NCBI RefSeq assembly: GCF_003946395.1
Contig: NZ_RHNZ01000011.1
Location: forward strand, 1 to 64,000
Direction: 5' to 3'
DNA: 64,000 bases
Source of the DNA: Levilactobacillus fuyuanensis
Lineage (GTDB): Bacteria > Bacillota > Bacilli > Lactobacillales > Lactobacillaceae
The position numbers and the translations under genes are program-made. Of this stretch, positions 6,771 through 28,134 are shown one piece after another; positions within the stretch are counted from its first letter, which is position 1; each line of letters begins with the position of its first letter. The notes beneath the pieces were generated by a model. The model saw only the letters and a list, made by a program, of their open reading frames with translations, made no database searches and was not told where the DNA came from.

Positions 6771-8990
6771 TTAGGGTGTATTGCTCAACGTCCAGGTTAT
6801 CCTTCCCGTATACGTTCCTCCAACTGCGCCACCATCAACCTGTAGATAGAATCCTTGATCCGGATCAGTCGTCAGCTTATTTGGAATCACCCGTTCACTG
6901 TTAGTATGACTAATCACATTCTGAGCACTGTCTGAAAGCACTGTTGTCAGACCATTGGCTTTATAGAGTAACTGTCCAGCAAGTGGTTGACCCGCGGCAT
7001 CATCTTTGTCTAAAGCTGTTGCAGTTGCTTCAAGATGCCAACCGCTGCCGCTTGCTTTACGTGTATCTTCCACATTAACACTGAAAGGTTCCTGACTCTT
7101 CAACAACTGCGTACGACCGTTCAATTGGCCGCTAAAGTTAAGATTCCCCGTCACCGACTTCAAAGCCAATCTCCCCAAATAAACTGTCAACGCGATTGGA
7201 TCTGAGGTATGTCCCTGATTGTCTGTGACCCAGACAGTAACGTCATTTTTGTTCTCAGTAAAGAGGGACGACTGTAGCTTCTGATTAATTGCACCAAAGG
7301 CGTCCGAACCAGATAGCGGTTGATTGTAGACCTCCTGACCGTTCGATTTAACATGTAGTCTTAGATCTGGATTCTTTAAGTTTTCGTCCTGAACAGCCAC
7401 GTTTCCAGCAATCTTAACGAATTGTCCTTCATCAACATCCTGTGTTGATTCATTCGTCAACCGCAACTCTAAGAACTTTAAGGGTGCCACTCTGAAGCTT
7501 GGAACCGTTGCTTCAGCGACCGCTTCTGTTCCTTTGAAGCTACTCGTCGCTGCTGAGACTTTACCCGCCCCCTCCGCAACTTCACCGTTCAGCGAAATCT
7601 TAACGTGGCTTCTGTTTCGATTGAAAATATGGCTTAGTTTCCTAATCAACGTTGCCGCCGAAAAATCTTTGAATGTGATTGTCTCCGTAGCATTGTCCTG
7701 TCCCGAATAAGTGATTTTTCCGCCAAGATACTTAATATGTTTGGGTAGCTCTAAGTTAGCAACAACATCATGCCACTCCGACTTACCACCTAAGTACTTA
7801 ATCATGTAGTCCAGCTGAACGCTGTCATGTTCCTTGACCGTATCATTTTCCTGAATCTTTTTATTCTGCGTAAGACTAGTTAATTGGGCATCAGCTGAAA
7901 CATCGACTAAATCTGGAATCTGTTCAAAGACTACCAAATTATTTTCATAGCTACTCCCTGTGGCTCCAGTAAATCCCCAACGTGCCGTGTGCGGGTGATC
8001 TTTATCCGTAATTTTTGACTTATCGATTGGCACGTTCTGCGAACGACCAGCAAGCGGTGCTCCTGTCTCCGGGTCCTTATCGTTAAACGTATACGTCATG
8101 TCTCCTATCTTGGAATCACCATTTCGCTGTGGTTCATACTTTAAGGTTAGATGGTGCCAATTCTTGTTCGACAAGAAGTTAAAGTTTTGTCCCATAATCA
8201 AGCCATTATGGTTGAGGGAAACGTATGAACGCCAGTCATTTCCTGGCCACCAACCTGGTTTGCCATCTGCGGTATGATAGACTTTTTCTACATGGTAACT
8301 ATTAACATTCCCTGGATAATTCGATGCTATATGTGGAAATTTAAGTTTTCCTGCACTGGCATCGATATCATAAGAGTTTCCTGGCCCTATCAAAGAATCA
8401 TATTGACTACGAAGATTCATATGTGTATCAAATTCTAGAGCCCAACTATTTTGAATAGCACTCTGAGCCACACTAGTCGGAGACTCTTTTTGATTATTTT
8501 CATCATCGTATCCCCAAACCCCCAGTGTTTCTCCATAAATCTTGTGCATATTAGTAGTAGCAGCTGTTCCCCGAGAATCATTTTGCAATACAAATGCCAT
8601 GCCATCACCAGCGGTATTATTTTTACTACTTTCATCGTCGGTTGAGTCGCTTCCGCCATCACCAAAGTATAACCACATTGAAGCTACCTGTTCATTGTCC
8701 AGATCGAATGTATTGTTGTCGGTCGACCAGATACTGCCCACTTGGCTAGTACTGTTAGTCAATTCCACAGACTGCGTATTCACAGTTGCCTGCGTATTCG
8801 AATCAACAATTCTGGCGTGATTATTAAGTGATGTTCCGATTTTAAAATATTGTTGTAGTGGAATCCCCTGCGGCGTATGTTCTAGAGCATATGTCAAATC
8901 TGCATTAGCCTGTGCCGAAATATTTCTGCTCAGCAATACTCCTCCTAGCGCCAAACCTACTAGCCAAAGAATTAGTCCCTTAACAATCAT
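6771..8990 (-). CDS. secreted L-type lectin / WxL-domain protein 1
   Basis: Predicted surface protein of 739 residues. A signal peptide (residues ~1-29, ending ISAQANA) is followed by a legume-type (L-type) lectin domain (~30-365), recognisable by TASMWLYFGDGG-like, GDGMAFVLQND, LGVWG, NSWALEFDTH, HHLTLKY and RWGFTGATG segments. Middle beta domains follow. The C-terminal WxL domain has both motifs, WHLEA and terminal WTLSN. WxL domains attach non-covalently to the cell wall and to WxIP partners. The start is placed at 8990, where GGGAG lies eight bases upstream; an ATG at 9026 lacks a good site. It is the most distal and leftmost of seven paralogues. The ligand is unknown, presumably a glycan. 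Confidence 0.88.
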   Translation of the reverse strand: MIVKGLILWLVGLALGGVLLSRNISAQANADLTYALEHTPQGIPLQQYFKIGTSLNNHARIVDSNTQATVNTQSVELTNSTSQVGSIWSTDNNTFDLDNEQVASMWLYFGDGGSDSTDDESSKNNTAGDGMAFVLQNDSRGTAATTNMHKIYGETLGVWGYDDENNQKESPTSVAQSAIQNSWALEFDTHMNLRSQYDSLIGPGNSYDIDASAGKLKFPHIASNYPGNVNSYHVEKVYHTADGKPGWWPGNDWRSYVSLNHNGLIMGQNFNFLSNKNWHHLTLKYEPQRNGDSKIGDMTYTFNDKDPETGAPLAGRSQNVPIDKSKITDKDHPHTARWGFTGATGSSYENNLVVFEQIPDLVDVSADAQLTSLTQNKKIQENDTVKEHDSVQLDYMIKYLGGKSEWHDVVANLELPKHIKYLGGKITYSGQDNATETITFKDFSAATLIRKLSHIFNRNRSHVKISLNGEVAEGAGKVSAATSSFKGTEAVAEATVPSFRVAPLKFLELRLTNESTQDVDEGQFVKIAGNVAVQDENLKNPDLRLHVKSNGQEVYNQPLSGSDAFGAINQKLQSSLFTENKNDVTVWVTDNQGHTSDPIALTVYLGRLALKSVTGNLNFSGQLNGRTQLLKSQEPFSVNVEDTRKASGSGWHLEATATALDKDDAAGQPLAGQLLYKANGLTTVLSDSAQNVISHTNSERVIPNKLTTDPDQGFYLQVDGGAVGGTYTGRITWTLSNTP

Positions 8991-9128
8991 ATTTCTTACT
9001 CCCTTCAAAATCTTGGCACTGGTCATGCCTAAAAGCCTGTGTAATTAGGCTAAAGGAGCGTCCCCATACTTCTGATTAAAAATATAGTATTACACATTTA
9101 ATAATAACACCCAGTACCATTTTGAAAT

Positions 9129-9137
9129 AGTATAACA
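9129..9137 (-). promoter_or_regulatory. extended -10 promoter box of WxL-lectin 1
   Basis: Minus-strand TGTTATACT followed by ATTT, about 140 bases upstream of the start codon. The same TGNTATACT box precedes three other genes of the array. No good -35 is visible, as expected for an extended -10 promoter. Confidence 0.5.
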
Positions 9138-9271
9138 TAGCAATTACATTTATTGTCACAAAATGCCCATATAATAATATTTATAACCGATAGTCGCTGT
9201 TATTTTTCACCCCACTTTTTGCAGATAAAGATAGTAAATTTGTAACGTATCTGGTACACTTGCTGAAACAC

Positions 9272-9302
9272 CAAAAAAGCCAGCCGATTTTCGACTGACT
9301 TG
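9272..9302 (-). terminator. terminator of WxL-lectin 2
   Basis: Stem 9278-9288 / 9291-9301 (AAGCCAGCCGA / TCGACTGACTT with G-U pairs), then TTTTTTGG on the minus strand, ten bases after the stop. Confidence 0.75.
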
Positions 9303-9312
9303 ATTTCTTCTA

Positions 9313-11556
9313 TTAAGTTGGTGCATTCGTAAAGCTCCAGGTTATTACGCCAGTATATGCCATTGGTGCGTTATTGATTCCGCCAACTGCATCGCCTTGA
9401 ACATCCAATAGTAACCCACTATCAGCGGTCCAATCGCCAGACACGTCTGTGACATCATTGTCACTAGTGCTCGTCGCAGACTGCAACTTAACGTAGCCCG
9501 CACTTAAGTCATCTTTAGTCGCACCTGACTTGTACACAAGACTAGCTGGTAAGGTACCTCTAAGTCTAGACATAAATGGCGTTGACTTGGCATAAAGCGT
9601 CCAGTCATTGCCCTTCCCACGAGTATCACTGACAGCTACCTTTAAGTCTGAACTTGGCCGAATCAATTGTTCTTTCCCGTTCAACGTCGTTGGCTCAAAA
9701 CTAGCCGTGGTCGGTACTGACAGATCCAAAGAACCTGACTTTACTGTAATTGTTTCGGTGACCTCATTTGAAATACGCCCATCTGTATCTTCAGCGTATA
9801 ATTTGAGATCATTAGCTTGCCCCGATAGTAACTTCGCTTGTGGCACATCATACGTAAACGACCCAGCGGTATCAGACGAACGCAGCAACTCAGTAGGTAG
9901 TGATTCACCATTAAGCACTGGGTGCAACGTCATCGAGCCCTTATCTACTGCACTATTATCATCATATTTCAGTTGTCCCGTCACCGGTACATCCGTATCT
10001 GGCATCGTTTTTGTTTCACCACTGGCACTGTCACCAGTTAATGCCATACTCAAGGCACTCGTTTTAGTCGGTGCCGTCACAGCGAATGCTGGAACTGTGG
10101 CATCAGCTAACGCGTTTGATCCAACAAACTTACTCATCGTTAACGCGGAATCACCAGGAGCTGCGACACCATCCAGTGTGATTGTCGCCGTCGGATTGGT
10201 TTTTGACATCTCAGAAATTGGCACTGTCAGAGTCTTGGTGTTCAGATCAGCCGCTGAAAGCGACGTCTTAGCTAACGACGAATCGCCGTACGTAACCGTC
10301 CCGCCAGAAAATGTCATATTGTTTGGTAAGTTAAGCTTAGCTTGAATATCTTTCCAGTTCTGACTGCCACCTGTGTAAGCCAAGTTGTAAGTCAACCGCA
10401 TGTGGTGTCCACCACCAACACTGTCCCCACTGGCAACCGTTCTCTGGGTTGTTTCATCCTTCAAGCTGGCAGTGGCATTCGAATTGACGATTCCCGGAAC
10501 TTGTTCAAACACAACCGCATTGGGTTCCCAGTTAGTACCAGTAGATCCGGTGAAACCCCAGCGAACTTGCCCGGTACCATCTGGATCGATGGATGACTTC
10601 GGTACACTGACCGTTTTGCTTGTCGGATTGGCCTTCGGTTGTCCGGTCTTCGGATTTTTATCGTCAAAGATATACGTCATTGTTTGGTCAGTCGCATTCC
10701 ACTTTAAGGTCACGTGGTACCAGCTACCGTCGACTAACCAGCCAGCTGATCTACCTTCGATTGGTTTGGTATGATTCATGGAAGCATAGTAGTAATCTTT
10801 TGTTGTGCTAACGTTACTGTATATAGGAACCCCAAAGAGCCCAGTACCGGTTTGCACCTGAGTCTTCGTTGTCACTGGCACCTGATGCATGTTGTAAGTT
10901 TCGGCTTTGCCAGGAAATCCAGAAGCAATGTGAGAATTGGTCGTATTAGAGGTTAAGGAACTATCAGTATCGAATGAACTTCCGCGCCCTAAAGCATCCT
11001 CACCCGTTGTTCCGTTATGAAAGGTATCAAACTCTAATGCCCAACTATTTTGGATACCTGTTGCCGCAACTTCACCAGCTGTAGACATATTTTTATCCTG
11101 ATCAGTTCCCCAAACGCCCAAAGTTTCTCCTGCAACTGGATTGCCATTTGCACCCCTGGTACTGGCACCCATTCCATGATCATATCGATCATCATTTTGC
11201 ATGACGAATGCCATACCATCACCGGAACTAGAATTCTTGTCACCAAAATACATCCACATGGAGGCCGTCTCGTCAGAATTCAAGCTCATTTTAGTATCAT
11301 CTTTGGTCCAGATTGTTCCTAACTGACTCCTATTATCTGTTAATTGTACTGCTTGACTTTCCCCAAAATCAGTTGCGACCTTTTTTGCCGAGTTTGGCGA
11401 AATGCTTCCCGCCTGAAAGTAACTGTCCAGATTAACCCCTTGTGGCGCCTGGTTTAAAGCACTAGCTAAATCCGCCTGTGCCGTCGTTCCCCATCCCCAA
11501 ATCACAATCCCTAACCCAACGGCCATAACACTCAATAAAATCGATCTAATCTTCAA
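9313..11556 (-). CDS. secreted L-type lectin / WxL-like protein 2
   Basis: 747-residue paralogue with signal peptide (~1-28, ending TTAQA), L-type lectin domain (~30-365; GDGMAFVMQND, LGVWG, NSWALEFDTF, HVTLKW, RWGFTGSTG), middle beta domains and a C-terminal WxL-like domain. The proximal motif is WTLYA but the terminal motif reads WSFTN, Phe replacing Leu. The start is a TTG at 11556 preceded by AGGAGGAG; no in-frame ATG suits the signal peptide. It is an independent unit with its own terminator and a 632-base upstream gap. Presumed role: display of a glycan-binding domain at the surface through the WxL system. Confidence 0.86.
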   Translation of the reverse strand: MKIRSILLSVMAVGLGIVIWGWGTTAQADLASALNQAPQGVNLDSYFQAGSISPNSAKKVATDFGESQAVQLTDNRSQLGTIWTKDDTKMSLNSDETASMWMYFGDKNSSSGDGMAFVMQNDDRYDHGMGASTRGANGNPVAGETLGVWGTDQDKNMSTAGEVAATGIQNSWALEFDTFHNGTTGEDALGRGSSFDTDSSLTSNTTNSHIASGFPGKAETYNMHQVPVTTKTQVQTGTGLFGVPIYSNVSTTKDYYYASMNHTKPIEGRSAGWLVDGSWYHVTLKWNATDQTMTYIFDDKNPKTGQPKANPTSKTVSVPKSSIDPDGTGQVRWGFTGSTGTNWEPNAVVFEQVPGIVNSNATASLKDETTQRTVASGDSVGGGHHMRLTYNLAYTGGSQNWKDIQAKLNLPNNMTFSGGTVTYGDSSLAKTSLSAADLNTKTLTVPISEMSKTNPTATITLDGVAAPGDSALTMSKFVGSNALADATVPAFAVTAPTKTSALSMALTGDSASGETKTMPDTDVPVTGQLKYDDNSAVDKGSMTLHPVLNGESLPTELLRSSDTAGSFTYDVPQAKLLSGQANDLKLYAEDTDGRISNEVTETITVKSGSLDLSVPTTASFEPTTLNGKEQLIRPSSDLKVAVSDTRGKGNDWTLYAKSTPFMSRLRGTLPASLVYKSGATKDDLSAGYVKLQSATSTSDNDVTDVSGDWTADSGLLLDVQGDAVGGINNAPMAYTGVITWSFTNAPT

Positions 11557-12132
11557 AATACCCGCTCCTCCTGAAACTAAAACTCGCCATCATTAGTCAG
11601 TAATGGCGAACTTTCTCTCCATTCAATCACGCCGCATCGTTCGCCAATGCTTTATCCACATCAGCAGTTTCGACCTAAATTCAGTTAACTTTCAATCTCA
11701 GCGATCAAAAGTGCGCAACCGATTGAATACTCGTAGAATCAACGCAAGTCGCATTCTTCCCCAAGAACCCGACTCCCCTATATTGGTTCTCCTATTAACA
11801 AAATTCATTATATTCTGTTTAGGGGCGGAACACAACTAAAATAATATAAGTTATCTGATTAATGTGCTCTCAAAAGAAACGTTTCGCCGAGAATTCAGCT
11901 ATACCAAGGGTTAAACCATTCTAACTACTCTTGGCACGAATACCTGTACGCTAGTCATTACCCACACACTAGCTAAATTGAGACAACCTATACCACCCAA
12001 TACAAATACATAGAATCTCCACATTTCAAAAAAAGCGTAACATTATTATCAACATAGCACCTTACCAGCTAATATCGAAAAATTATGAAGCTTCGTATAA
12101 TTTGCTTAATACCATCTCGTCTGACCAACAAG
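11557..12132. other. long upstream region of WxL-lectin 2
   Basis: No gene supported. It contains a perfect GAAACGTTTC palindrome at 11876-11885, a cre-like sequence, and AT-rich -10-like sequence around 11841-11850 on the minus strand. The leader to the start codon would be about 280 bases. Confidence 0.35.
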
Positions 12133-12162
12133 AAAAAAAGGATGCAGCCAGCGGCTGCATCC
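12133..12162 (-). terminator. terminator of WxL-lectin 3
   Basis: Perfect 10 bp stem GGATGCAGCC / GGCTGCATCC (12140-12149 / 12153-12162) with a run of seven T on the minus strand. Confidence 0.9.
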
Positions 12163-12188
12163 TTATAGATCTCTATTCAACTTTCACC

Positions 12189-14525
12189 TTACTCACCATT
12201 GGTCAGTATCCAGGTTACCGTTCCTTTGTAATGACCCTGAACCGCACCGCCATTCAGTTGCAACAAAATTCCAGAATTATCGTCCCAATCACTAGCAATA
12301 TTAACGGGTGTGTTGGAACCATCTGAAACATGATTGGTAATCGGTGTTTGTGCATCTGCCGTTAGCGGATGGATCCCGGTCTTATCACTGTAAACCAGTT
12401 GACCGTCCAGTGGCGTTCCCGTGTCATTTGTTTCCGGAGTATTCGCCCCCGGAGTAGGCTTCAACGTCAACGGCGTGGCTTCGACACCTAGTTTCCACTT
12501 GGTCCCACTCGTCACCGTATCGTTAATATTGAACGACCAGTTTGGGTCAGAGCGACTGACTAATTGACCAGCACCACTAATGGTTGCATCGTAGTTCAAG
12601 TCACCAGAGGAACTACCAAAGTCAACGTTACCAATGACAATATCTACCGTTTGTGGATTCGTATAATTTCCGCTACCGTCCGACGCGATAATACTTAATT
12701 TATAGGTCCCTGCAGATAGACTATTGGCCGCCACATGGTAGGTGAACCCCTTAGCAGGGTCGTTGGCATCGAGATCACTCGGCGTCACTGCCGGTAATGG
12801 CGTCCCATTATTCTGAGCATCATAAAGCGTCGGATGCAATGTCGCTTTCGAATTCGCCAAGACGGTATTATCAGCTTTGACTACTTTCCCTGTAATATCA
12901 AGATCATTACCTTGGTTAACATTGATCTTATCTTGATCCAAGTTCAGCATCAATGCCTGTTGCGTAATCTTAAAGCTCCTAATGGTTGCACTAGTCATTT
13001 CACCCGTCCCAACAAAGTTAGACGTCACGTCGCTGGTTGTATAGGACTGATCGTTAAGGGTTTTCCCCTCCAATGTGATGGTTGCCGTCTTATTCGCAGC
13101 CGTTAATGCCCCTACATTGACATTCAGACTTTGTCCATCAGTTGCCTTACCAGAGAGCCCACTAACGTCAACACTTGATGCCACCGCGTCGTTAGTCTTT
13201 TGCATCGTTCCGGACGTTATTTGGATGCCTTTCGGGATACGCAGGTTTGCCATGATACTGTCCCACGAATCCGAACCAGAATCATAATTGACTTTATATT
13301 GAACTTTCACCTTACTATTGCCGCTAATACCAGCTGTGCCAACCTCACTATTTGTCGCTTCATCAATGACGCTTGCACTGGCACTCGAGTCAATCAGGCC
13401 TGGAACATGTTCAAAAACAACTAAGCTATCTTGTGAATCATTTTTAGGAAAATCGCTGTCAGTTGAGACGCCCGTTGATCCTGTAATTCCCCAGAAGACC
13501 TTACTGTTAGTACTATCAGCACTCAATTTCTTCGTGTCAATATAAGCTTTCGTCTTTTTATTGTCCACTGTCACTGGAGCCCCTGTACTGGTACTCCTGT
13601 CATCTAAATAATACTGCATTGTCCCAATCGTGCTACCAGCTGCGGGTTTCGTATAATCAAGTGTCACATGATGCCAAGCCCCATCGGTCAAAAGAGTGCT
13701 AGTATCGGTAATTAAGCCACGATGGATTTGCTTGTAATAGTGGTAATTACCAATTGATGGAAGTAGTCCAGTCTGTATTGTTCCAAAAGTTTTAAAATCT
13801 GAATACGTCCCTTCATCGCCAGGATAACCAGACGCAATATGCTCGCCATTATAAGTTCGTGAGACTTCCGTGTTGTCAGACATATTTGCGTAACCAAAGC
13901 CATCACCTAGGTCAAATGCACTTGGCGCCTGCTTTCCCATAATCCAATTCGATGATGAGTCCGATGGATCCGTATTATTCATATGTGTATCAAATTCCAC
14001 AGCCCAGCTATTGGGGATTGCCTTACTTGCAATCGTCAATGCACTCCCATCCTTGGACTGTGGATCAACACCCCAAACACCCAATGCTTCACCTGTACCA
14101 GAAAATTCATTATTACTATCATTCTGCAAAACGAAGGCCATGCCTTCACCTGGCTTAGTCCAAGTGGAGTTATCAGCACTCATGTAGATCCACATCGACA
14201 AGCGCTGATTCTTATACAGATCAAATGAGCGATTATTCGACCAAATTGTACCACCTGTATTTTTCCCGCCGTAACTACTAATCTCAACACCATCCATTGG
14301 TAATCTATTGGTGGTCTGGGTTGGCTCCAAAAGCTTGGCACTGTTTTTAATGCCAGTAGTCCCCAGTGTCCCTGGCATAGTGAAATAGGGATTACCCTGA
14401 ACTTTAATTCCCTGTGGCGCAGCATCTATCGGGTCTGCCTGTGCCGTCTCTGGAGCCACAAACAGCCCCAGCCCGACAAAAGCCGCCGCTCCTAGTAATG
14501 TCACTAATCCCTTTCTAAATCGCAT
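12189..14525 (-). CDS. secreted L-type lectin / WxL-domain protein 3
   Basis: 778 residues. Signal peptide (~1-30, ending ETAQA), then an L-type lectin domain (~32-390) whose N-terminus APQGIKVQGNPYF resembles proteins 4 and 5, so these three form one subgroup. Diagnostic segments are GEGMAFVLQND, EALGVWG, NSWAVEFDTH, HIASGYPG, WHHVTLDY and VFWGITGSTG. Middle beta domains follow, and the C-terminal WxL domain carries WKLGV and the terminal WILTN. ATG at 14525 is chosen because GGGGGG lies seven bases upstream; an earlier in-frame start at 14552 would spoil the signal peptide. Independent unit. Confidence 0.87.
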   Translation of the reverse strand: MRFRKGLVTLLGAAAFVGLGLFVAPETAQADPIDAAPQGIKVQGNPYFTMPGTLGTTGIKNSAKLLEPTQTTNRLPMDGVEISSYGGKNTGGTIWSNNRSFDLYKNQRLSMWIYMSADNSTWTKPGEGMAFVLQNDSNNEFSGTGEALGVWGVDPQSKDGSALTIASKAIPNSWAVEFDTHMNNTDPSDSSSNWIMGKQAPSAFDLGDGFGYANMSDNTEVSRTYNGEHIASGYPGDEGTYSDFKTFGTIQTGLLPSIGNYHYYKQIHRGLITDTSTLLTDGAWHHVTLDYTKPAAGSTIGTMQYYLDDRSTSTGAPVTVDNKKTKAYIDTKKLSADSTNSKVFWGITGSTGVSTDSDFPKNDSQDSLVVFEHVPGLIDSSASASVIDEATNSEVGTAGISGNSKVKVQYKVNYDSGSDSWDSIMANLRIPKGIQITSGTMQKTNDAVASSVDVSGLSGKATDGQSLNVNVGALTAANKTATITLEGKTLNDQSYTTSDVTSNFVGTGEMTSATIRSFKITQQALMLNLDQDKINVNQGNDLDITGKVVKADNTVLANSKATLHPTLYDAQNNGTPLPAVTPSDLDANDPAKGFTYHVAANSLSAGTYKLSIIASDGSGNYTNPQTVDIVIGNVDFGSSSGDLNYDATISGAGQLVSRSDPNWSFNINDTVTSGTKWKLGVEATPLTLKPTPGANTPETNDTGTPLDGQLVYSDKTGIHPLTADAQTPITNHVSDGSNTPVNIASDWDDNSGILLQLNGGAVQGHYKGTVTWILTNGE

Positions 14526-14900
14526 GTGATAGCCCCCCGTTGCCCAATTCACTTGGGCGTGACTACGTAAACTTATTCCTCAACTTTTAACTTTGTATTT
14601 ACAGCTAAACCGGCAAAATTTCCGTCCGCAAAACGATTTTGCCCAAATAAGACCACTTTGGCCTCCTCTTTAAGTATTGTTTTCAGATGATGATTTTAAG
14701 TGTAATTAGATTGGTTCGTTGATTGGTTCTGGGCTCAATATCTAAGTTAATTATACGATGATAACTGATATCGTTATAGCAAAATAATTCTACAAGCCCT
14801 ATAAATGGGGTGATTTGACAATATAATTTAGGTTGCGTTGTTAACCAAACTTACTATCACTTTTCAAGGCTTTTTAGCCCCCTAATTTGAAAGGACACTG
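14526..14900. promoter_or_regulatory. upstream region of WxL-lectin 3 with palindrome
   Basis: No gene seen. A minus-strand TATAAT sits at 14750-14755, about 220 bases before the start. A 15-base palindrome GCAAAACGATTTTGC at 14628-14642 resembles a CcpA cre site, but lies downstream of that -10, so a roadblock role would be the only simple model. Confidence 0.35.
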
Positions 14901-14908
14901 GCCAAATT

Positions 14909-14942
14909 AAAAGGGGGCATCCTCATCTCTGAAGACGCCCCC
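14909..14942 (-). terminator. terminator of WxL-lectin 4
   Basis: GGGGGCATC / GACGCCCCC (14913-14921 / 14934-14942) then TTTTAATTT on the minus strand. The GGGGGC arm can alternatively pair with 14877-14889, giving a second, overlapping hairpin. Confidence 0.8.
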
Positions 14943-14972
14943 CGCTTAATTTACGCAATTATTCAACATGCT

Positions 14973-17315: not shown

Positions 17316-17645
17316 ATCATTTCCCCCTACGGTTCAAAAGCAGCTTGAACCTACTAGTACCTCAACTCTCAATTTTATTGCCACGCCGCATGCTGTGGCA
17401 TTTAGTCATTGGCGTAACCCCATGGCGAACCACCGTTCAGACCGATTAACCTCACTAGTCATTGCGTCAATCATTGTTTTAACGATACAGCGGTCTTATG
17501 GTAAATATATTAAACTTACTTTTCGAAAAAGGATAAAAGAAGAATATATTCACCGAAACGTTATTTTCACGGGTTACTAGTTTCGTTATGCCCATGATAT
17601 CACATCAGAAAGCGTTTCCACAACGAAAAGTATTATTTAATTTGT
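17316..17645. other. upstream region of WxL-lectin 4
   Basis: No gene supported. AT-rich -10-like sequence is at 17501-17511 on the minus strand. A cre-like sequence lies at 17607-17620. Confidence 0.35.
17607..17620. promoter_or_regulatory. cre-like (CcpA) site
   Basis: AGAAAGCGTTTCCA differs from the consensus TGAAAGCGNTTNCA only at the first base. Carbon-catabolite control of WxL (csc) clusters has been proposed in lactobacilli; here it is a motif match only. Confidence 0.35.
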
Positions 17646-17679
17646 AAATAAAAAACCACCCACATTTCTGCAGGTGGTT
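17646..17679 (-). terminator. terminator of WxL-lectin 5
   Basis: AACCACC / GGTGGTT (17654-17660 / 17673-17679) followed by TTTTTATTT on the minus strand. Confidence 0.8.
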
Positions 17680-17713
17680 AATTCATTTTAACCGTAATTA
17701 TCAGGCATATGGT

Positions 17714-20020: not shown

Positions 20021-20176
20021 TGCTATGCTTCCCTTTTGAATTTCAGGAGTAATCGTCTTGGATTACTCGGTGTACCGACCAGCTACAGGCCTGGTGATAA
20101 GCTTATTTCACGTCAAAGAACCTGGCAATGAATTTCGCCAGATTCGTTCAATTTCAACTTAATTTCTATCAAATAA

Positions 20177-20185
20177 AGTATAGCA
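20177..20185 (-). promoter_or_regulatory. extended -10 promoter box of WxL-lectin 5
   Basis: Minus-strand TGCTATACT followed by TTATTT, matching the TGNTATACT box in front of proteins 1, 6 and 7. Confidence 0.5.
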
Positions 20186-20258
20186 CCTACATTAATAAAT
20201 TAAAGTGACCTACCTACTTATTTCATTTCAACCAAGCATAGCTGCTTACACCTCAAAA

Positions 20259-20292
20259 CAAAAAAATCACCCACGTTTCCGCGAATGATTTC
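20259..20292 (-). terminator. terminator of WxL-lectin 6
   Basis: Imperfect stem (AAATCA...TGATTT with inner CGCG/CGTG) then seven T on the minus strand. Confidence 0.7.
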
Positions 20293-20303
20293 TGTTTCAA
20301 ACA

Positions 20304-22820
20304 TTAAACAGCCGAATTAACAAATGTCCAATGGATGGTGCCACTATAATTACCAGCCGATGCGCCACCTCTTATAAGTAATCTAATTCCAGAATTATCT
20401 GTCCAATTCTGCGCAATGTTAGTCGTCTTAGTCGTGTCATCGCCACTCGGCGCGCCACTAGCAATCGGTGTAGCTGTAGCTGGTGAGGTTCCCAAAGCCT
20501 TATCTGTACCATCCGCCTCCGGATAGACCAAGTTGCCATCCAGAGTCGTCGTGACGGCAGTCTGCTTAGGATCAGTCGTTAATGGATCAGCATACGCGTA
20601 GAGTTGCCAATTACCACTTCCTGGGGCCCTAGAATCAACCACATCTAACCCCCAATCGTTGTCTCGCTTGAGTGTCGTGTCTGCCCCCGAACCAGTCAGA
20701 GTCATATTTCCGAACGACATATCTTCACTTGTATCACCTAAATCTACCGTCCCAGCAATAATCTCAGTAGAAACGACTGGTGACCGTCCATCGTCTGGAT
20801 TATTATCCGTTGCATAAAAACTCACGGTATTAGAGCCCGCCTTCAACTTAGAGTTAGGTATCGTATAATGGAATCCAGTCGTTCCATAGTTTCCATCATA
20901 ATAATCGTCGTCACCCTGTTTGAAAGTATCTTGTGCAACGCCATTCAACGTCGGATGAATGGTTATATCTGCTGGCATCACATTTTTGTCATCTGGGACG
21001 ACCACACCAATAACCTTAGCATCTGCTCCCCCCCCATAATTCACATGCCACACTCTATCGGAGGTTTCCGTGTCTATATCCATAGACAACTTGGACTTCC
21101 CAATATTGAAGCCTGTTAGCTTAGCAGTAGAAGACGCATTAGTCCCCTGGAAGTAACTCGTTGTACTGTCTTCAGTCGTAGCAACATTTGATGTCGTCCC
21201 ATAGAGTGTAATCTTTTCTTCTTGTGTATCAGTCAGTGTCACACCATTACCATCACTGCCCAACGCAACTGGAAGTTCTGTACCATTTAGCTTTGAAATA
21301 TCAACACTACCACCATCTGAGCCGTCAGGACTTGTTATCCTTCCAGAGGAGAGTTGAATACTCTTAGGAATAGTCAATGAAGCATTAACGTTCTTCCAAT
21401 CCTTCAAACCACCATCACGCTTAAATGTATACTCAAGCTTGACTGGCGTTCCACCAGAAATCGTAGGTGTTGAAGTACTACCGTCTACCGCAGTGTAGTT
21501 TCCTGAATCGTCTTTTGTACTCAATTTAGCCGTTGCACTCGTTTCAGCTTCGCCTGGAATTTGATCAAAAGCAACCAGATTATTTTCAGTTGCTTCGCCG
21601 GTTGAACCCGTGAAGCCCCATCTAACTTTTGTAGTGTCTCCAAACGCACTAAGCTTAATGGGCACCGTGGCACTATCTGTGGAGGCCTTAGCTAATCCCG
21701 TTTCAGGATCTTTGTCGTTAAACGTATATTTCATCTTGCCATTAACATCCCCATTTACTGGCGGCGTATAATCAAGCGTAATATGATGCCACCGACGATC
21801 GCTCATTCCATATCCTGTAGCACTTTCACCTAAGTAACCCAAATGCTGCATTTTATAGTAATAATAGTCTGTTGGTGATTTTTGCCAAGTTTTTCCAAAT
21901 AGTCCTGAAATTGTACTCCATGTTGTCTTTACACCTGTCTGCGTCGCTGACGAATAAGTCTCAGTCTGCCCAGGATAATTTGAAGCAATATGATTGATAT
22001 TACTAGGGATTGCAGTCCCGCTACCACTTGGATTTCCTGAAGAATCAAAACTGTTATAGTAATTTCCCAAATCAAAAGATGCAGGACTCACATCATCCAG
22101 ATTCCATTGAACCTGACCTATAAGTGCTAGTGCAGTACCAGTAGCTGGTGGCGTATCCACATTGCTATGTGTATCAAACTCTAAGGCCCAACTTTTCTGA
22201 ATTGCCGAAGTTGCCAAATCATTCGCTGTATATTCTTCAGGATCCACACCCCAGACTCCCATGCTCTCACCTTTACCTGGCACATCTACAGTCCGATCTG
22301 TACTACTGCTCTTCCCCCACGTTTTAGTCCCAGAAAAAGCGTTTACACCATCGTCATCATTCTGAAGTACAAAGGCCATACCATCACCAATAGACTCAGA
22401 CTTATTATCACCTTCACCACTCGTATAAATCCACATTGAGGCCGTTTCAGGTTGTGTCAGATCAAAAGTTTTGTCAACAGACCAGATAGACCCCCAAGTG
22501 TTCTTATTAGTACTACCAGCCTTAGAAATCTGAATCACTGAATTCCCAGTTCCAGCAGGGCTTCCAACACCCTCGTTGCTGCCCATCACCTCTGCGACAT
22601 TTTTCCCTGTAACCCCACTAACGTCATTACTAATTTTAAAGTAGTCTTTATATTCTGCACTTGATAAATCTACACCTTGTGGTGCGCCTGCTAATGCTGC
22701 GGCGTTAGTCTCATACGTTGGCGCATCTACAGCTTGGGCGTTAATCTTGTTTGACCACAGCCCTAGTCCGGCCACAGCCAAAGTCACAGCCACGCCTAAT
22801 ATTCCCTTCTTCATTTGCAT
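20304..22820 (-). CDS. secreted L-type lectin / WxL-like protein 6
   Basis: The longest paralogue, 838 residues. Signal peptide (~1-29, ending KINAQA), L-type lectin domain (~40-430, longer than in the others through inserts around the GDGMAFVLQNDDD and NSWALEFDTHS-equivalent regions; here KSWALEFDTH), then middle beta domains and a WxL-like domain with WQLYA and a terminal WTFVN, Phe replacing Leu. Its N-terminus (AALAGAPQGVDL) pairs it with protein 7. ATG at 22820 has GAGGGGG eight bases upstream. An extended -10 box lies about 210 bases upstream. Confidence 0.86.
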   Translation of the reverse strand: MQMKKGILGVAVTLAVAGLGLWSNKINAQAVDAPTYETNAAALAGAPQGVDLSSAEYKDYFKISNDVSGVTGKNVAEVMGSNEGVGSPAGTGNSVIQISKAGSTNKNTWGSIWSVDKTFDLTQPETASMWIYTSGEGDNKSESIGDGMAFVLQNDDDGVNAFSGTKTWGKSSSTDRTVDVPGKGESMGVWGVDPEEYTANDLATSAIQKSWALEFDTHSNVDTPPATGTALALIGQVQWNLDDVSPASFDLGNYYNSFDSSGNPSGSGTAIPSNINHIASNYPGQTETYSSATQTGVKTTWSTISGLFGKTWQKSPTDYYYYKMQHLGYLGESATGYGMSDRRWHHITLDYTPPVNGDVNGKMKYTFNDKDPETGLAKASTDSATVPIKLSAFGDTTKVRWGFTGSTGEATENNLVAFDQIPGEAETSATAKLSTKDDSGNYTAVDGSTSTPTISGGTPVKLEYTFKRDGGLKDWKNVNASLTIPKSIQLSSGRITSPDGSDGGSVDISKLNGTELPVALGSDGNGVTLTDTQEEKITLYGTTSNVATTEDSTTSYFQGTNASSTAKLTGFNIGKSKLSMDIDTETSDRVWHVNYGGGADAKVIGVVVPDDKNVMPADITIHPTLNGVAQDTFKQGDDDYYDGNYGTTGFHYTIPNSKLKAGSNTVSFYATDNNPDDGRSPVVSTEIIAGTVDLGDTSEDMSFGNMTLTGSGADTTLKRDNDWGLDVVDSRAPGSGNWQLYAYADPLTTDPKQTAVTTTLDGNLVYPEADGTDKALGTSPATATPIASGAPSGDDTTKTTNIAQNWTDNSGIRLLIRGGASAGNYSGTIHWTFVNSAV

Positions 22821-23285
22821 CTAAATAACCCCCTCGTCCGAATATTTTCGGGCTTTTCGTGCATCCTCAACTTTTTAAAAGTGCATTATTTTTTCGTTTT
22901 ATAGTGGCTAACTATCCAATTTGGCCCCTTATCAAGCCAAGCGACTCATTCAACGTATGTATTTTAACTAAATTTACTTGATACCCGCTAACGAATCCTG
23001 TTAAGAACATTTAACCGCCCTAATAAATATAGTATACCATCAGCGGCTCATAAATATAAGAGTAAATATTGATAATATTATAGTTAACAGCAAGTACAAC
23101 AATCGCTTTAATATCAGCATTTAAGCCGTTTTCACAAGAGACATCTCCGCTTTAGCTGTATTGCTATCACTAGTCTTGTTCGTAGCTGATTTGTTCACAA
23201 GAAATCACTTATGTAACATTAAATTTGCCTAAAAATAGGACACCAAAAACAATCCAATTTTTCGCGAGTTTTAGCATTTCGGCCT
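22821..23285. other. upstream region of WxL-lectin 6
   Basis: No gene supported. AT-rich; contains the promoter box at 23031-23039 and a leader of about 200 bases. Confidence 0.4.
23031..23039 (-). promoter_or_regulatory. extended -10 promoter box of WxL-lectin 6
   Basis: Minus-strand TGGTATACT. The surrounding 19 bases (23024-23042) are identical to those upstream of protein 7 (25878-25896). Confidence 0.55.
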
Positions 23286-23323
23286 AAAAAAGGTGCCGCC
23301 CGTAATCATCACGGGCGACACCT
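23286..23323 (-). terminator. terminator of WxL-lectin 7
   Basis: Stem AGGTGCCGCCCGT / ACGGGCGACACCT (23291-23303 / 23311-23323), then TTTTTT on the minus strand. Confidence 0.9.
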
Positions 23324-23335
23324 CTCTCTTTTAAA

Positions 23336-25732
23336 CTATTCAACTGAATTAACAAATGACCAATTAATCGTTCCAGAATAAGCGCCCTCAACCGCACCAC
23401 TGTTGACCTTTAGCCGGATACCAGTATCAGCCGTCCAATCAGCCGCAATGTTGGTTGAGCTGGCCGTACCATCTGAAGTGCCACTTGCAATCACCGGTGA
23501 GTCGCTACTATTCAGGGTCGTGGTAGTCCCAGCCTTATCCGTGTAGACAAGCGCGCCATCCAGTGGCGTACTCGTTGCCGTCCCGTTAAGGTACATACCA
23601 TCAGTATTGGCCGTAACTGCCCAGGTACTATTCTTGGTCTGGCTGTCATCCACGTTCAGGCTCCAATCGTCCGAGCGGTCAACGAGGATACTCCCACTAC
23701 CAGTCAACGTCGTGGGTTCAAAGACCAAATCACCACTTGTGTGACCAAAGCCCACCGTTCCGGCAGTCACCGTGGTCGATACCGTCGCTGATTTGTCACC
23801 GGCTGTATCGGTCGCGTAGAAACTAACGGTATTGTCTCCGGCAGTTAACTTACTATTAGCGATGGGATATTTGAAACCATACATGATTCCGTTGGTCACA
23901 TCATTTAAATCTACAGTATCTTGTGCCTCACCATTAATCGTCGGATGAAGTGTAATGTCATCATTATTCATCGTCGTATCAGACGGCACGGCCACCCCTA
24001 CAACAGTAGCGTCGTCAGAACTGCCAGCGTTAACAGCTAAAGTACTACTGTCCTCATCCAATGCCATCGCTAGTGCTGGATTAACCTTCTTGGTAATGGT
24101 GAAGCTCGGTGTCTTCGCCGTCGAGGTCGCGTTGCTTCCCACGAAGTAACTCGTTTGCGACGCTTCACTAACATCACTGGTAGATGCCACATCCTTGACT
24201 TTTCCGTATAAGGTCACCGTGGCCTTCTGCGTACCACTCAAGGTCAACCCACTATCCGCCAGTGGCACTGACAGCTTCTGACCGTCGCCTGCAGAAGTTG
24301 GTGCCTCAATCTTCGACACATCGACTTTGTTATCGTTGCTATCCGTGTAGCTGGCATCCGGGTACGCAATCGACCCCGAAGTCACGTCAATATCATCCGG
24401 AATCGTGAGATCCCCATTGACCGACTTCCAATCTTCATCTCCGCCAGTCCGTTCCAACGTATACGTTAGCTTAACATCGCTGTCACCGGAAACGGAATCG
24501 CCATCGCTGACATCATTAGTGTAGTCACCGGCATTATCCTTAGTAGTCATCGTTGCCGATGCGGCAGTCTGTGCCTCACCAGGGATCTGATCAAAGACAA
24601 CCAAGTTATTTTCTGAATATAATCCAGTTGATCCGGTAAATCCCCAGCGAACCTTGGTCTGACCGGAACTTAGATTAAACTCACTCAAATCAATTGGAAC
24701 CGTCGCATAGTCCGTCGACTTCTGCGGCAGACCCGTATCAGGATTTTTATCGTTATACGTGTAGGTCATGGACCCCTTACCACCGGAAGTTGTCGGTGGC
24801 GTATAGGTCACGGTGATATGATGCCACCGGTGATCGGAAAGTTTCCCAATACCGCCCGTGGCCCCTTCATCTAAGAGGCCTTCATGTTGGAGATTGTAGT
24901 AGTAGAACGTCCCACTCCCATTGATCATGTTTCCCGTCAATGGATTTTTAATTTTTCCTTTGCCGACAACACTAGTCCCAGTATACGTGTCGGTATCCCC
25001 GGGATAATTAGACGCGATGTGGGTGTCCGTAATCTTAGACTGGCTGGACGGTGTATCAGCCGGTCCACTGATATCGTAGGATGAAGGATCACTGTCCGCA
25101 AAATCATACGAGCTATTCGTCCACCCAATTAAGGAGCCCCAGTAAGTCCCCCGTTGCGGCATTTCATTATTCGGGAACGTGTCAAATTCAAGTGCCCAAC
25201 TATTTTGGATTGCCGACGAAGCTGGGTTGGTATTGTTGAAATACTGATTCGCGACACCCCAAACGCCCATAGACTGGCCGGGCCCGGAATAGGCATCGGT
25301 TCCGCCATTCTGGAGAACGAAGGCCATCCCGTCACCAACGTTTGCCGTATTTTCACCACTCGCATAGATCCACATCGAGGCCGTTTCACTCTTACTCAAG
25401 TCAAACGATTCATCCGTCGACCAGATTGTCCCCCAACTATCCTGCACGCCGGCTTGAGAAATCTGAATGGCTGAGTTTCCAGTGCCAGCCGGACTCCCGG
25501 CCTTGACCAGTTCGGCCGCGTTGTTCCCAGTCGCCGAGTCCACTGATTTATCAATGGTAAAGTAGTTCGCATCCAAGCCGTTCTGCAGGTCAACCCCCTG
25601 AGGCGCGCCATCTAAAGCTGCTTGGCCGGTATTAAAAATTGTAGAATTGGCGCTAGCCGATATCGTCGACCACCCACCCAATCCAGCTATGGTCAGTACG
25701 GCCATTCCCAACATGCTCTTCTTGATATTCAT
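23336..25732 (-). CDS. secreted L-type lectin / WxL-like protein 7
   Basis: 798 residues. Signal peptide (~1-28), L-type lectin domain (~35-395; GDGMAFVLQNG, QSMGVWG, NSWALEFDTF, HIASNYPG, WHHITVTY, VRWGFTGSTG), middle beta domains rich in Asp and Ser, and the most diverged WxL-like domain of the array: proximal WAVTA and terminal WSFVN, neither matching strict WxL. Closest to protein 6. ATG at 25732 has GGGGG upstream. It is the first paralogue after the WxL-interacting protein gene but is separated from it by a terminator and 534 bases. Confidence 0.86.
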   Translation of the reverse strand: MNIKKSMLGMAVLTIAGLGGWSTISASANSTIFNTGQAALDGAPQGVDLQNGLDANYFTIDKSVDSATGNNAAELVKAGSPAGTGNSAIQISQAGVQDSWGTIWSTDESFDLSKSETASMWIYASGENTANVGDGMAFVLQNGGTDAYSGPGQSMGVWGVANQYFNNTNPASSAIQNSWALEFDTFPNNEMPQRGTYWGSLIGWTNSSYDFADSDPSSYDISGPADTPSSQSKITDTHIASNYPGDTDTYTGTSVVGKGKIKNPLTGNMINGSGTFYYYNLQHEGLLDEGATGGIGKLSDHRWHHITVTYTPPTTSGGKGSMTYTYNDKNPDTGLPQKSTDYATVPIDLSEFNLSSGQTKVRWGFTGSTGLYSENNLVVFDQIPGEAQTAASATMTTKDNAGDYTNDVSDGDSVSGDSDVKLTYTLERTGGDEDWKSVNGDLTIPDDIDVTSGSIAYPDASYTDSNDNKVDVSKIEAPTSAGDGQKLSVPLADSGLTLSGTQKATVTLYGKVKDVASTSDVSEASQTSYFVGSNATSTAKTPSFTITKKVNPALAMALDEDSSTLAVNAGSSDDATVVGVAVPSDTTMNNDDITLHPTINGEAQDTVDLNDVTNGIMYGFKYPIANSKLTAGDNTVSFYATDTAGDKSATVSTTVTAGTVGFGHTSGDLVFEPTTLTGSGSILVDRSDDWSLNVDDSQTKNSTWAVTANTDGMYLNGTATSTPLDGALVYTDKAGTTTTLNSSDSPVIASGTSDGTASSTNIAADWTADTGIRLKVNSGAVEGAYSGTINWSFVNSVE

Positions 25733-26200
25733 CGCACGAACCCCCTTGCCCGGTAGTCGACCGGCTCACTCTAATTTCCTCAACTCGACGTATGACACTA
25801 TCCATTCACTCATTCGTGGAAAACTAACTTTGGCTATGAAGATGTGCTCTCCCATGGCTGTTTGTTAGTCATCCTAGTAAATATAGTATACCATCATGAG
25901 ACGGATTTTGTTCGACGTTTCAGGGGATTGATTGTTGGTTTTAAGATTGCTTTAAGGTACCGCCATTTAAAGGATTATTAGGCTTTAAACATTTAGCACT
26001 AGTTTTGCCGCGTTATAATTGTATGCTGATTTTAGTTACACATCATTTGCTTTATAACGTGCTCAATTTTTGCAATTGTTCAACTAAATATACGTTATAC
26101 CAAAAAGAGAATCATACCCTTTCCATTGCCAATACCGCATAGATTTTTCTTAACGTCATACACCGTCATTTTCATTAACACGTTATCAAGAATTCAGTCC
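25733..26200. other. upstream region of WxL-lectin 7
   Basis: No gene supported. Contains the promoter box at 25885-25893, a leader of about 145 bases, and AT-rich sequence without clear repeats. Confidence 0.4.
25885..25893 (-). promoter_or_regulatory. extended -10 promoter box of WxL-lectin 7
   Basis: Minus-strand TGGTATACT inside a 19-base block (TAAATATAGTATACCATCA on the plus strand) shared exactly with the region upstream of protein 6. Confidence 0.55.
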
Positions 26201-26205
26201 AAAAC

Positions 26206-26256
26206 AAAAACACTCTGATGACGATCGGCATTTCTGCTAATCTTCATCAGAGCGTT
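26206..26256 (-). terminator. terminator of the WxL-interacting protein gene
   Basis: AACACTCTGATGA / TCATCAGAGCGTT (26209-26221 / 26244-26256) then TTTTTG on the minus strand. Confidence 0.85.
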
Positions 26257-26266
26257 ATTTTATAAT

Positions 26267-27313
26267 CTATTCAGTTTCGTCCGTGTCATCATCTTTCTTC
26301 CGATTCTTCATCAGTAAGTAAACGATAATGGCTAACAGCAGGACAATTAAAATCCCACCACCAACGAACCACCAAAGATAACTCTTCTGTGGTGTATTGA
26401 TCCGGTTCTTCAGTGAACTAATATCCTTTTGGGTAATCGTAAAGTTCTTAGTGAACTGCCAGTGATAACCACCCTTGGCATACGCATCAAGTTTCAATGT
26501 GTAATCACCCGCAGTTAACTGCTTGTCACCCCAAGGAATGGAGTAATTGAAGTTCGAATTAGGTGCCATTGCCATACCTTCCTTAGTCTGACTCAAGACA
26601 GTCTTTGAACTACCTTGCTTTGTGACCTTAGAAACCACCTTCAACGCCTTCATCAAACCTGGACGAGGATTTTGTAAATTGGCTTGAACTTGACTAAAGC
26701 CATTGATTGATCCGGCTTTAACCGCATTCAATCGCATATCAGGCGCAACATCAATACCGCTCTCACGCAAACGAACACCCACTACGTAAGCAAAAGCATT
26801 GCTAATCGTCACACCATTCTTCTTGCTACCCGTGTTGTTATCTTTAAGCTCTTTGACATAAACACCGCCCAAGATCATACCGTCGATCTTCTTGGCTGGC
26901 ATTTTGTAATTTACAGAAACTTTCTTAGAACTCTTTGCATTAACGGTAACTTTCTGCGTATCATTTTTGCCAAATACGTCCTTGATACCAACTTTTAGAG
27001 AACTATCCAGTTTGGGATTGCTTTGACTATAATCGATAACCCCGTTGGTATTGGTCATTGCTTGATTAACACCAACCTGGAACTTCTTTGCTGACTTGCT
27101 TGAGTTATGAATAACAATCGTTAGTTTTTGTTGTTCATTGGGCTTTACGCGAAGTGCAAAGTAAGTCACTTTCTTATCATCCTGATTTTTTGGCGTTATC
27201 GTGCTAACTGAGTATCCAACACTTTCCGCCTTCGCAGTCTTAGTCTGCTGCATCCAACCAAACGCTACTAACAACGTCCCTAACGTTACTAATACCCTCA
27301 ACCAACGTTTCAT
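26267..27313 (-). CDS. WxL-interacting protein (DUF916/DUF3324, CscA-like)
   Basis: 348-residue membrane-anchored surface protein. A signal peptide (~1-27) is followed by the DUF916 domain, now called the WxLIP peptidoglycan-binding domain (~30-150), then the DUF3324 or WxLIP host-binding domain (~155-300). A C-terminal membrane helix (WWFVGGGILIVLLLAIIVYL) precedes a Lys/Asp-rich cytoplasmic tail. In known systems this protein holds WxL proteins at the cell wall. It is the only such partner for all eight WxL-type proteins here. The ATG at 27313 with GGAGG ten bases upstream is preferred over a TTG two codons earlier. It follows the small WxL gene after a hairpin. Confidence 0.92.
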   Translation of the reverse strand: MKRWLRVLVTLGTLLVAFGWMQQTKTAKAESVGYSVSTITPKNQDDKKVTYFALRVKPNEQQKLTIVIHNSSKSAKKFQVGVNQAMTNTNGVIDYSQSNPKLDSSLKVGIKDVFGKNDTQKVTVNAKSSKKVSVNYKMPAKKIDGMILGGVYVKELKDNNTGSKKNGVTISNAFAYVVGVRLRESGIDVAPDMRLNAVKAGSINGFSQVQANLQNPRPGLMKALKVVSKVTKQGSSKTVLSQTKEGMAMAPNSNFNYSIPWGDKQLTAGDYTLKLDAYAKGGYHWQFTKNFTITQKDISSLKNRINTPQKSYLWWFVGGGILIVLLLAIIVYLLMKNRKKDDDTDETE

Positions 27314-27360
27314 GGTCAACCTGCCTCCATCATTTTATAAACCGTTTTCTTCATTGTAAC

Positions 27361-27393
27361 AAAGAATGCGGTAGCTGTCGCTACCGCATTCCG
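27361..27393 (-). terminator. hairpin between small WxL gene and WxIP gene
   Basis: Perfect 12 bp stem GAATGCGGTAGC / GCTACCGCATTC with a four-base loop. The minus-strand tail is only CTTTGTT, so it may be a leaky terminator that lowers WxIP expression relative to the small WxL protein. Confidence 0.7.
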
Positions 27394-27441
27394 AATTTAA
27401 TATTTATGGTAATTCAGCTTGTTTTTTAACTATTTGGTTAA

Positions 27442-28134
27442 TTAGCCAGCGTAAGGAGTATTAGCAATTGTCCAGGTCAAACTTGAGGAGTAAGTACCAG
27501 CAGCGTTACCACCAGCAATATTTAAGGTTGCATCATTGATTTGATTTCTCCAAGTACCATAACCGTTACCAGCAGCAGCGGTCAAGACAGGAACTGCGTT
27601 GGTCTCACCAGGAGTAACAGTCGTTGTGGCACCAGCACCCGCAGCAGCGCTACCAATAGTAGCAGGCTTTAAAGTGTTGTCAGTCTTCCCATCGATATCA
27701 GCATTATCAGTTTCTGGTGTACCCTTCAAATCAATAGTAGCACCCAATAACGTCTTTTTCGAGGTTGTATCAGTGAAAGTAGACGCAGCAACCGTTACGT
27801 TCCAACCAGCATCACTACCACTATTAACAACTTCAACGGCCCCGCCCTTAGCATCTTTATTAGTCGAATCACCATTTGTTGTAATTCCGGCACCTGAACT
27901 AATATCGAAATTGTCAGCCTTACCAGTAACTTTATGAGTACCGAAAGCCAAATCTGGGGCAGCAGTTAATGATACGGCCCCATCATGAGTACCAGTACCA
28001 TCACCTGGAGTCAACGTAACAGAGGCGTCAGTTGATTGACTATTAGTGTCATCCGCGTTAGCAGTAACAGTAGTGAACCCAAATCCAGCAGCAAGTGCAA
28101 CAGTAGCGATTAATTGTAAAGTTTTTTTAGTCAT
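27442..28134 (-). CDS. small WxL-domain cell-surface protein
   Basis: 230-residue secreted protein made up almost wholly of a WxL domain. A signal peptide (~1-27, ending VTANA) is followed by an acidic, Thr/Gly-rich beta domain with the proximal motif WNVTV and the terminal WTIAN, conservative variants of WxL. Small WxL proteins are the standard companions of a WxIP and large WxL proteins in csc-type loci. The ATG at 28134 is set by GGGAG nine bases upstream. Probably co-transcribed with the WxIP gene and likely the most abundant member of the complex. Confidence 0.92.
   Translation of the reverse strand: MTKKTLQLIATVALAAGFGFTTVTANADDTNSQSTDASVTLTPGDGTGTHDGAVSLTAAPDLAFGTHKVTGKADNFDISSGAGITTNGDSTNKDAKGGAVEVVNSGSDAGWNVTVAASTFTDTTSKKTLLGATIDLKGTPETDNADIDGKTDNTLKPATIGSAAAGAGATTTVTPGETNAVPVLTAAAGNGYGTWRNQINDATLNIAGGNAAGTYSSSLTWTIANTPYAG

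Follow-up and report, generated by a model that had tools for sequence, protein, structure and literature searches.

Which arrangement is represented by seven consecutive genes for lectin-headed surface proteins that follow a single pair of anchor genes? This question is raised by a locus in a 64,000-nucleotide (nt) stretch of Levilactobacillus fuyuanensis DNA (contig NZ_RHNZ01000011.1, positions 1 to 64,000), here called the window. A check of the open reading frames (ORFs) identified nine genes at positions 6771-28152, all on the minus strand: seven large genes for lectin-WxL proteins, a gene for a WxL-interacting protein (WxLIP) and a gene for a small WxL protein (Table 1). The large genes are referred to as own1 to own7, numbered from the WxLIP side, from high to low coordinate. 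The initial annotation had placed the same nine genes on one strand, and only its end is corrected here: the ORF of the small WxL protein begins with a TTG start at 28152, and the earlier end, 28134, corresponds to an internal ATG. The array represents an enlargement of a cluster type already known, the csc (WxL) cluster, and is located at one genomic spot across the genus. It is real and looks functional, and it probably encodes wall-anchored, separately transcribed lectins with paralogue-specific sugar sites. This reading draws on what the sequence shows: the genes and domains present, the metal residues, the loops specific to each paralogue, the hairpins, the synteny and the age of the paralogues.

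In the proposed mechanism, the large-WxL component of the Levilactobacillus csc cluster would have grown to a set of seven adhesins that are secreted and anchored to the wall. Each adhesin would be exported and carry a metal-dependent L-type (legume-like) lectin near its N-terminus, followed by beta modules, and its C-terminal WxL domain would be docked at the peptidoglycan together with the small WxL protein and the WxLIP, which is anchored in the membrane. The sugar-contact loops of the seven heads are old, different from each other and largely kept across species. With a terminator for each gene and different heads, several glycan specificities may be shown, each set separately; candidate targets are plant, yeast or host glycans.

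Table 1. Coordinates of the array genes, the adjoining sortase gene and predicted signals in the window
Feature	Position	Strand	Remarks
own7, lectin-WxL, last of array, class A	6771..9026	-	751 aa ORF
own6, lectin-WxL	9313..11556	-	747 aa; sole one of seven exceeding the Pfam lectin cut-off
own5, lectin-WxL	12189..14552	-	787 aa; loop A residue Glu; loop D long
own4, lectin-WxL	14973..17315	-	780 aa; without Pfam match; loop A residue Glu; loop D the longest
own3, lectin-WxL	17714..20020	-	768 aa; without Pfam match; long loop D
own2, lectin-WxL	20304..22820	-	838 aa; loop B insertion; C8 tract at 21028
own1, lectin-WxL	23336..25732	-	798 aa; WxL motifs W-A-V and W-S-F
WxLIP	26267..27319	-	350 aa; DUF916, DUF3324 and C-terminal transmembrane stretch
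Small WxL protein	27442..28152	-	236 aa ORF; PF13731
Sortase adjoining the cluster	28685..29512	-	belongs to the conserved setting
Terminator-like hairpin after own6	9277..9301	-	scan and folding search
Terminator-like hairpin after own5	12138..12164	-	scan and folding search
Terminator-like hairpin after own4	14912..14943	-	scan and folding search
Terminator-like hairpin after own3	17654..17679	-	scan and folding search
Terminator-like hairpin after own2	20262..20293	-	scan and folding search
24-nt motif upstream of own2	23019..23042	-	contains TATACT
24-nt motif upstream of own1	25873..25896	-	one mismatch to the own2 copy

Domain structure of the large proteins

The layout proposed in the initial annotation was found in all seven large proteins, which contain a signal-peptide-like N-terminus (judged by eye), an L-type lectin domain, beta modules and a C-terminal WxL-type domain. 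The start of own7 is more likely at M13 than at the ORF start, also as judged by eye. The Pfam L-type lectin family PF18483 was matched at E<=0.01 in five of the seven proteins, one of which exceeded the curated cut-off, and it was also matched in 45 of 54 relatives. The two proteins without a Pfam match at this threshold align over their full length with the others and are 30-36% identical to the first. The Pfam WxL family was matched in a single large protein, with an E-value of 0.0058 that is below the cut-off. The remaining domain calls were based on an alignment of all seven proteins, a profile match to PDB 9i25_A, and AlphaFold models of own4 and own7 that were searched with Foldseek. 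The C-terminal part matched 9i25_A, a "WxL domain surface protein", with an E-value of 1.2e-13; the C-terminal piece of own1, when searched alone against PDB, gave no match.

For comparisons across genomes, we used a set of 88 proteins consisting of 84 of the 92 array ORFs and four genes from elsewhere in the source genome. Eight array ORFs shorter than 600 aa (split, partial or remnant) were left out, and gene 5 of G016 was kept though cut at the end of the fetched stretch. Both WxL tryptophans are present in all 86 rows that have a residue at these positions. The second motif is W-x-F in three of the seven window proteins (the genes at 9313, 20304 and 23336), and the first motif of the gene at 23336 (own1) is W-A-V.

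The own4 model, built from a 54-row alignment with a mean predicted local distance difference test (pLDDT) score of 85.4, matched SraP, YwfG and legume lectins. The own7 model, built from 36 rows with a mean pLDDT of 87.0, matched an archaeal legume-lectin domain, legume lectins and SraP. Both models also matched Ig-like, pilin and other multi-domain beta proteins, and their TM-scores, normalised by the lectin targets, were about 0.5-0.67. The structure prediction suggested in the initial annotation as a check thus yields models of own4 and own7 with the legume-lectin jelly-roll fold, and the same fold is predicted by homology for the other five.

Metal and sugar sites

The metal ligands of legume lectins form the motif E-x-D...N...D...H, to which an Asp in loop A is added; the loops are named A to D. 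The ligands E, D, D and H are present in all 88 proteins, and the N is present in 80 of them, including all seven of the window. The loop A residue is D in 80 proteins, E in seven and S in one; within the window it is Asp in five proteins and Glu in own4 and own5. The choice of site residues was guided by D117, D152, Y154, N156 and D166 of YwfG, the lectin of which binds mannose via residues of the same kind (PMC9815576). The seven heads may bind glycans, of the kinds proposed above, in a metal-dependent manner.

The sites differ between the paralogues. Going from own1 to own7, the residue two positions past the metal Asp (D+2) reads F, H, R, E, H, F and H. The stretch counted around loop D comprises 18 residues in four proteins and 27-29 in own3, own4 and own5, and own2 contains an insertion of approximately 20 residues in loop B that is common to two orthologues. 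Such features are mostly shared by the respective orthologues, with exceptions in groups 2 and 3. The chosen sugar-site columns were 61.1% identical between orthologues (26 pairs, those of group 7 being drawn from 3 of its 10 listed members) and 21.5% identical between paralogues (21 pairs), compared with 64.9% and 35.1% for the rest of the lectin; the columns were picked by the analyst and gaps were counted as mismatches, which enlarges the difference between paralogues.

The locus across Levilactobacillus and the family

The spot was compared in 35 genomes, the one containing the window (G000; 2.72 Mb, 54 contigs) and 34 others of the genus Levilactobacillus. The conserved gene order is sortase, small WxL, WxLIP, lectin genes, LMWPTP, LemA and M48 peptidase, the last three named by Pfam; we take the M48 peptidase to be HtpX. 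The order is broken by contig ends in G008, G009, G015, G019, G021, G027 and G029. As further exceptions, the WxLIP gene is split in two in G021 and G027, and the anchor pair is missing in G013. In G004 (locus L124), one lectin-WxL gene is located before the WxLIP, and there are four small-WxL matches.

Four or more lectin genes at this spot are common in the genus (16 of the 35 genomes), and 29 genomes have at least one. None was found in six genomes (G001, G017, G018, G023, G024 and G033), one in three, two in nine, three in one, four in five, five in two and six in four. G019 contains six or seven, and four genomes contain seven (G000, G002, G028 and G013, with one gene split in the last). 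All 35 genomes contain some lectin-WxL gene and some WxLIP. Outside the genus, a match of some kind was found in 104 of 251 sampled genomes of the family, representing 24 of 40 genera, with at most four first-look candidates scored per genome. Three places fetched outside the genus contained tandems of two to four lectin-WxL genes. L151 (G064) and L152 (G209), from other genera of the family, contain three and four clustered lectin-WxL genes, respectively.

This natural series of 0 to 7 heads at one locus in one genus offers a test of multi-adhesin display by WxL clusters, of whether one WxLIP limits display, and of how L-type lectin specificity diverges after duplication. The array also points to a large uncharacterised set of lectins in food-type bacteria.

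Phylogeny of the paralogues

We inferred trees from the full-length proteins, the lectin domains, the middle parts and the WxL domains of the 88-protein set; two rows were too short for the WxL-domain tree, which contained 86. A further tree of 111 proteins included, from 13 additional genomes, ORFs with a length of 690 aa or more, together with the whole gene 5 of G016, and excluded ownC52, which has a long branch. In the 88-protein tree, the nearest relative of each of the seven window proteins belongs to another species, and the seven are old paralogues. Overall, copies from the same genome clustered no more than in shuffled data (72 changes versus a shuffled mean of 71.6). The repeated duplication proposed in the initial annotation is thus borne out, but the duplications are old.

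The same ortholog groups were recovered in the full-length, lectin-only and middle-only trees. Two of the earlier subgroupings hold in part: own6 and own7, and likewise own3 and own4, fall into supported clades in these three trees, but not in the WxL-domain tree. The lectin of own5 resembles those of own3 and own4 (48 and 46% identity, and a long loop), but own5 is placed outside their clade, while own1 and own2, also suggested to form a subgroup, are sisters in none of the four trees. Domain exchange was considered and is not claimed: the WxL tree fails to recover several ortholog groups, yet none of the three tested on the WxL domain was rejected by the approximately unbiased (AU) test (p 0.354, 0.475 and 0.106).

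In the 111-protein tree, a clade of last genes contains 20 proteins from 20 genomes, including own7, with a support of 100 in the Shimodaira-Hasegawa-like approximate likelihood ratio test (SH-aLRT). All of these genes adjoin LMWPTP; the member from G030 has a long branch and an unsure placement. Seven of the nine two-gene arrays consist of class C and class A, and G021 and G026 each have a single lectin gene, which belongs to class A. In nine of the 29 genomes that carry lectin genes, the tree shows no terminal gene of class A (G004, G005, G008, G014, G016, G019, G022, G029 and G034). In the simplest reading, copies would have been added between the WxLIP and an ancient terminal lectin, and some copies would have been lost.

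The variation in copy number from 0 to 7 would also be expected if the genes were a redundant birth-and-death family, with specificities that overlap and without specialisation of the copies. Split or remnant copies in four genomes (G003, G005, G010 and G013) and copies that are each other's nearest relatives in G019 (genes 5 and 6) and G004 (genes 2 and 3) fit that explanation as well. However, the paralogue-specific loops are largely kept across species, a class A gene is last in 20 genomes and the metal residues are invariant in 88 rows, all of which speaks against mere redundancy, an improbable explanation.

Repeats and transcription signals

Tandem paralogues can also represent a phase- or antigenic-variation set, in which the surface is altered by recombination or slippage, and own2 contains one C8 tract. 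Against this stands the absence of inverted repeats of at least 24 nt in 6695-29600. The C8 of own2 is the only C/G run of at least 8 in the 17 array pieces scanned, and no homopolymer of at least 6 was found near the breaks of three split genes. Moreover, the same ortholog groups emerge from the lectin and middle trees, and in six of the seven proteins (all but own3) no part is better conserved relative to the closest orthologue than the lectin. We consider such a set very improbable. The C8 run itself (21028-21035) could slip, yet it is not conserved.

The gaps upstream of the seven lectin genes are 283-632 nt long. A folding search identified a T-tailed hairpin that begins 11-34 nt past the stop codon of all seven lectin genes and of the WxLIP gene. 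The test was extended to the 83 array ORFs, in 17 array pieces, that were 1800 nt or longer and had 75 nt of sequence past the stop, where it was passed by 54 genes, compared with one of 83 random places and none of 83 shuffles. The hairpin after each of the seven genes makes it likely that they are transcribed separately, and the heads may also be regulated separately. The upstream regions of own1 and own2 have a 24-nt motif in common, for which no match was found in 100 shuffles, and which is perhaps a shared promoter or regulator site.

The predicted anchor proteins

The WxLIP matched the Pfam families WxLIP_PGBD (3.6e-38) and WxLIP_HBD (7e-44), both far above the cut-off. Its C-terminus matched NCBIfam GG_III-CTERM, and the transmembrane helix was otherwise identified by eye. 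It is homologous to EfmWxLIP1, as indicated by matches to PDB 9i25_C (3.2e-47) and 9i1y_A (3e-47). The small WxL protein matched PF13731 (9.1e-21; 75.3 bits versus a cut-off of 25), and a search for solved relatives in PDB gave a chance-level match or none. PDB 9i25 contains both a WxL domain (chain A) and EfmWxLIP1 (chain C), each homologous to proteins of the window, which suggests that the WxL domain is bound to the WxLIP in this entry; no paper on 9i25 was found in a search of the open-access literature. A WxLIP, a small WxL protein and large WxL proteins with a C-terminal WxL domain, the components of a csc/WxL cluster, are all present. The nine cluster proteins were searched over their last 80 residues for an LPxTG-type motif, with no match, and none was assigned as CscD. 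The sortase beside the cluster is presumably similar to the housekeeping class A enzyme; every one of the 35 genomes contained a single match to this sortase at E<=1e-40. The initial annotation read the locus as a csc cluster expanded into a display system, a view that finds support in these shared components, in the pairing of WxL domain and WxLIP in 9i25, and in the paralogue-specific loops.

It had also been suggested that one anchor pair serves all seven heads, and this is not shown by the data. The lectins could be real without the local WxLIP and small WxL protein being their dedicated anchor, if their WxL domains attach straight to peptidoglycan or make use of whichever WxLIP the cell has, in which case the adjacency would be inherited linkage. 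The source genome contains three WxLIPs, three sortases and 11 lectin-WxL genes; four of the last are outside the array, and three of their contigs (C8, C4 and C52) have no match to any of the three WxLIPs. The anchor pair is also present at the spot without a lectin gene after it in six of the 35 genomes, and G013 has lost the pair but kept its lectin genes. Conversely, the pair is found at the spot, whole or in pieces, in 34 of the 35 genomes, and a WxL domain and a WxLIP occur together in 9i25. We regard a non-dedicated anchor as somewhat unlikely.

Compared with G002, G013 lacks the stretch containing the small WxL and WxLIP genes, and the aligned flanks are 86-93% identical. At 7890-8960 of the G013 locus (L094), there is an apparent deletion and a short ORF that stops just past a signal-peptide-like start.

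Several observations weigh against the interpretation as an expanded csc cluster with separately transcribed, functionally distinct heads. The seven lectin genes of G013, one of them split, persist without a local small WxL and WxLIP, and other WxLIPs and unlinked lectin-WxL genes are available in the source genome. The Pfam WxL family matches nine of the 54 members of the large-protein family, and F or V replaces the L of WxL in some paralogues. Some orthologues vary at D+2, with H, H and A in ortholog group 2 and R, R and H in ortholog group 3, and the choice and scoring of the site columns adds to the contrast between paralogues. Regarding transcription, 29 of the 83 array genes fail the folding test, 12 of which are last genes, and no hairpin passed after the small WxL gene. 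With a simpler consensus scan, hairpins were found after only five of the seven, and the 22 found in total are a weak excess over shuffles (mean 15.2, standard deviation 4.5). Promoter-like sites in 6500-26400 are at chance level (32 found versus 33.5 expected), and the sole match in the window to the consensus of the CcpA catabolite-responsive element (cre) is at 2300, outside the array, with 1.41 expected.

A more specific version of the preferred reading would be a swappable rack, in which the seven separately transcribed lectins compete for a small supply of docking sites on one membrane WxLIP and their relative expression picks the glycans. The specificities of the heads would differ from each other and be conserved across species, and the array would have grown by insertion between the WxLIP and a fixed terminal lectin. 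We put this forward as a tentative and rather doubtful extension.

Comparison with known WxL systems

Large WxL proteins with a ConA-like lectin domain were described in 2006 for ten CscC proteins, and one cscC gene per csc cluster is usual (PMC1534035). The most common WxL cluster consists of one WxLIP and two WxL proteins, 98 of 179 (PMC1534035, PMC10599100, PMC9772566). The small LPxTG protein CscD is common and is reported to be missing in some csc clusters. The window resembles the csc clusters of Lactiplantibacillus plantarum and others in containing a WxLIP (CscA), a small WxL protein (CscB) and a large WxL protein (CscC), but it differs from the usual clusters in its seven lectin-headed large WxL genes and in having no CscD among the nine.

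YwfG of Lactococcus lactis and SraP are anchored by LPxTG and not by WxL. Their L-type lectin heads (PDB 7yl4-7yl6 for YwfG, 4m00 and 4m01 for SraP) are of the same kind as those described here and match the own4 model, while the stalk of YwfG, which consists of Mbp and MubR, differs from the window proteins (PMC9815576). Llp1 of Lacticaseibacillus rhamnosus GR-1 has the same combination of an N-terminal L-type lectin and a C-terminal WxL domain, with reported binding of mannan/mannose and a reported role in mediating adhesion; it is a single gene, and the portion of the paper cited mentions no array (PMC5116675). In the same genus as the window, L. brevis Lb630-Lb636 form one cluster of several WxL proteins that are reported to bind cellulose and xylan, but these are described as single-domain WxL proteins and the word "lectin" is absent from the text of the 2022 paper (PMC9026416, PMC12691797). 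The DUF916/WxL region of honeybee Firm-4 is likewise an enlarged WxL region in lactobacilli, with the opposite ratio of six DUF916/DUF3324 genes to three WxL genes, and "lectin" is absent from the text (PMC4449606). No account of a multi-lectin array was found in a search limited to open-access papers. The impression in the initial annotation that no system of this size had been described is to this extent upheld, but arrays of four or more lectin genes are common in the genus.

Flanking genes

Several genes around the cluster are partly kept in relatives. They include a Mur ligase gene at 2190-3575 and, at 29592-36678, genes for a pyridine-nucleotide oxidoreductase, an enzyme of the 5-enolpyruvylshikimate-3-phosphate (EPSP) synthase family, a TetR-type regulator and an ATP-binding cassette (ABC)/FtsX transporter. 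We take the EPSP-synthase-family enzyme to be MurA.

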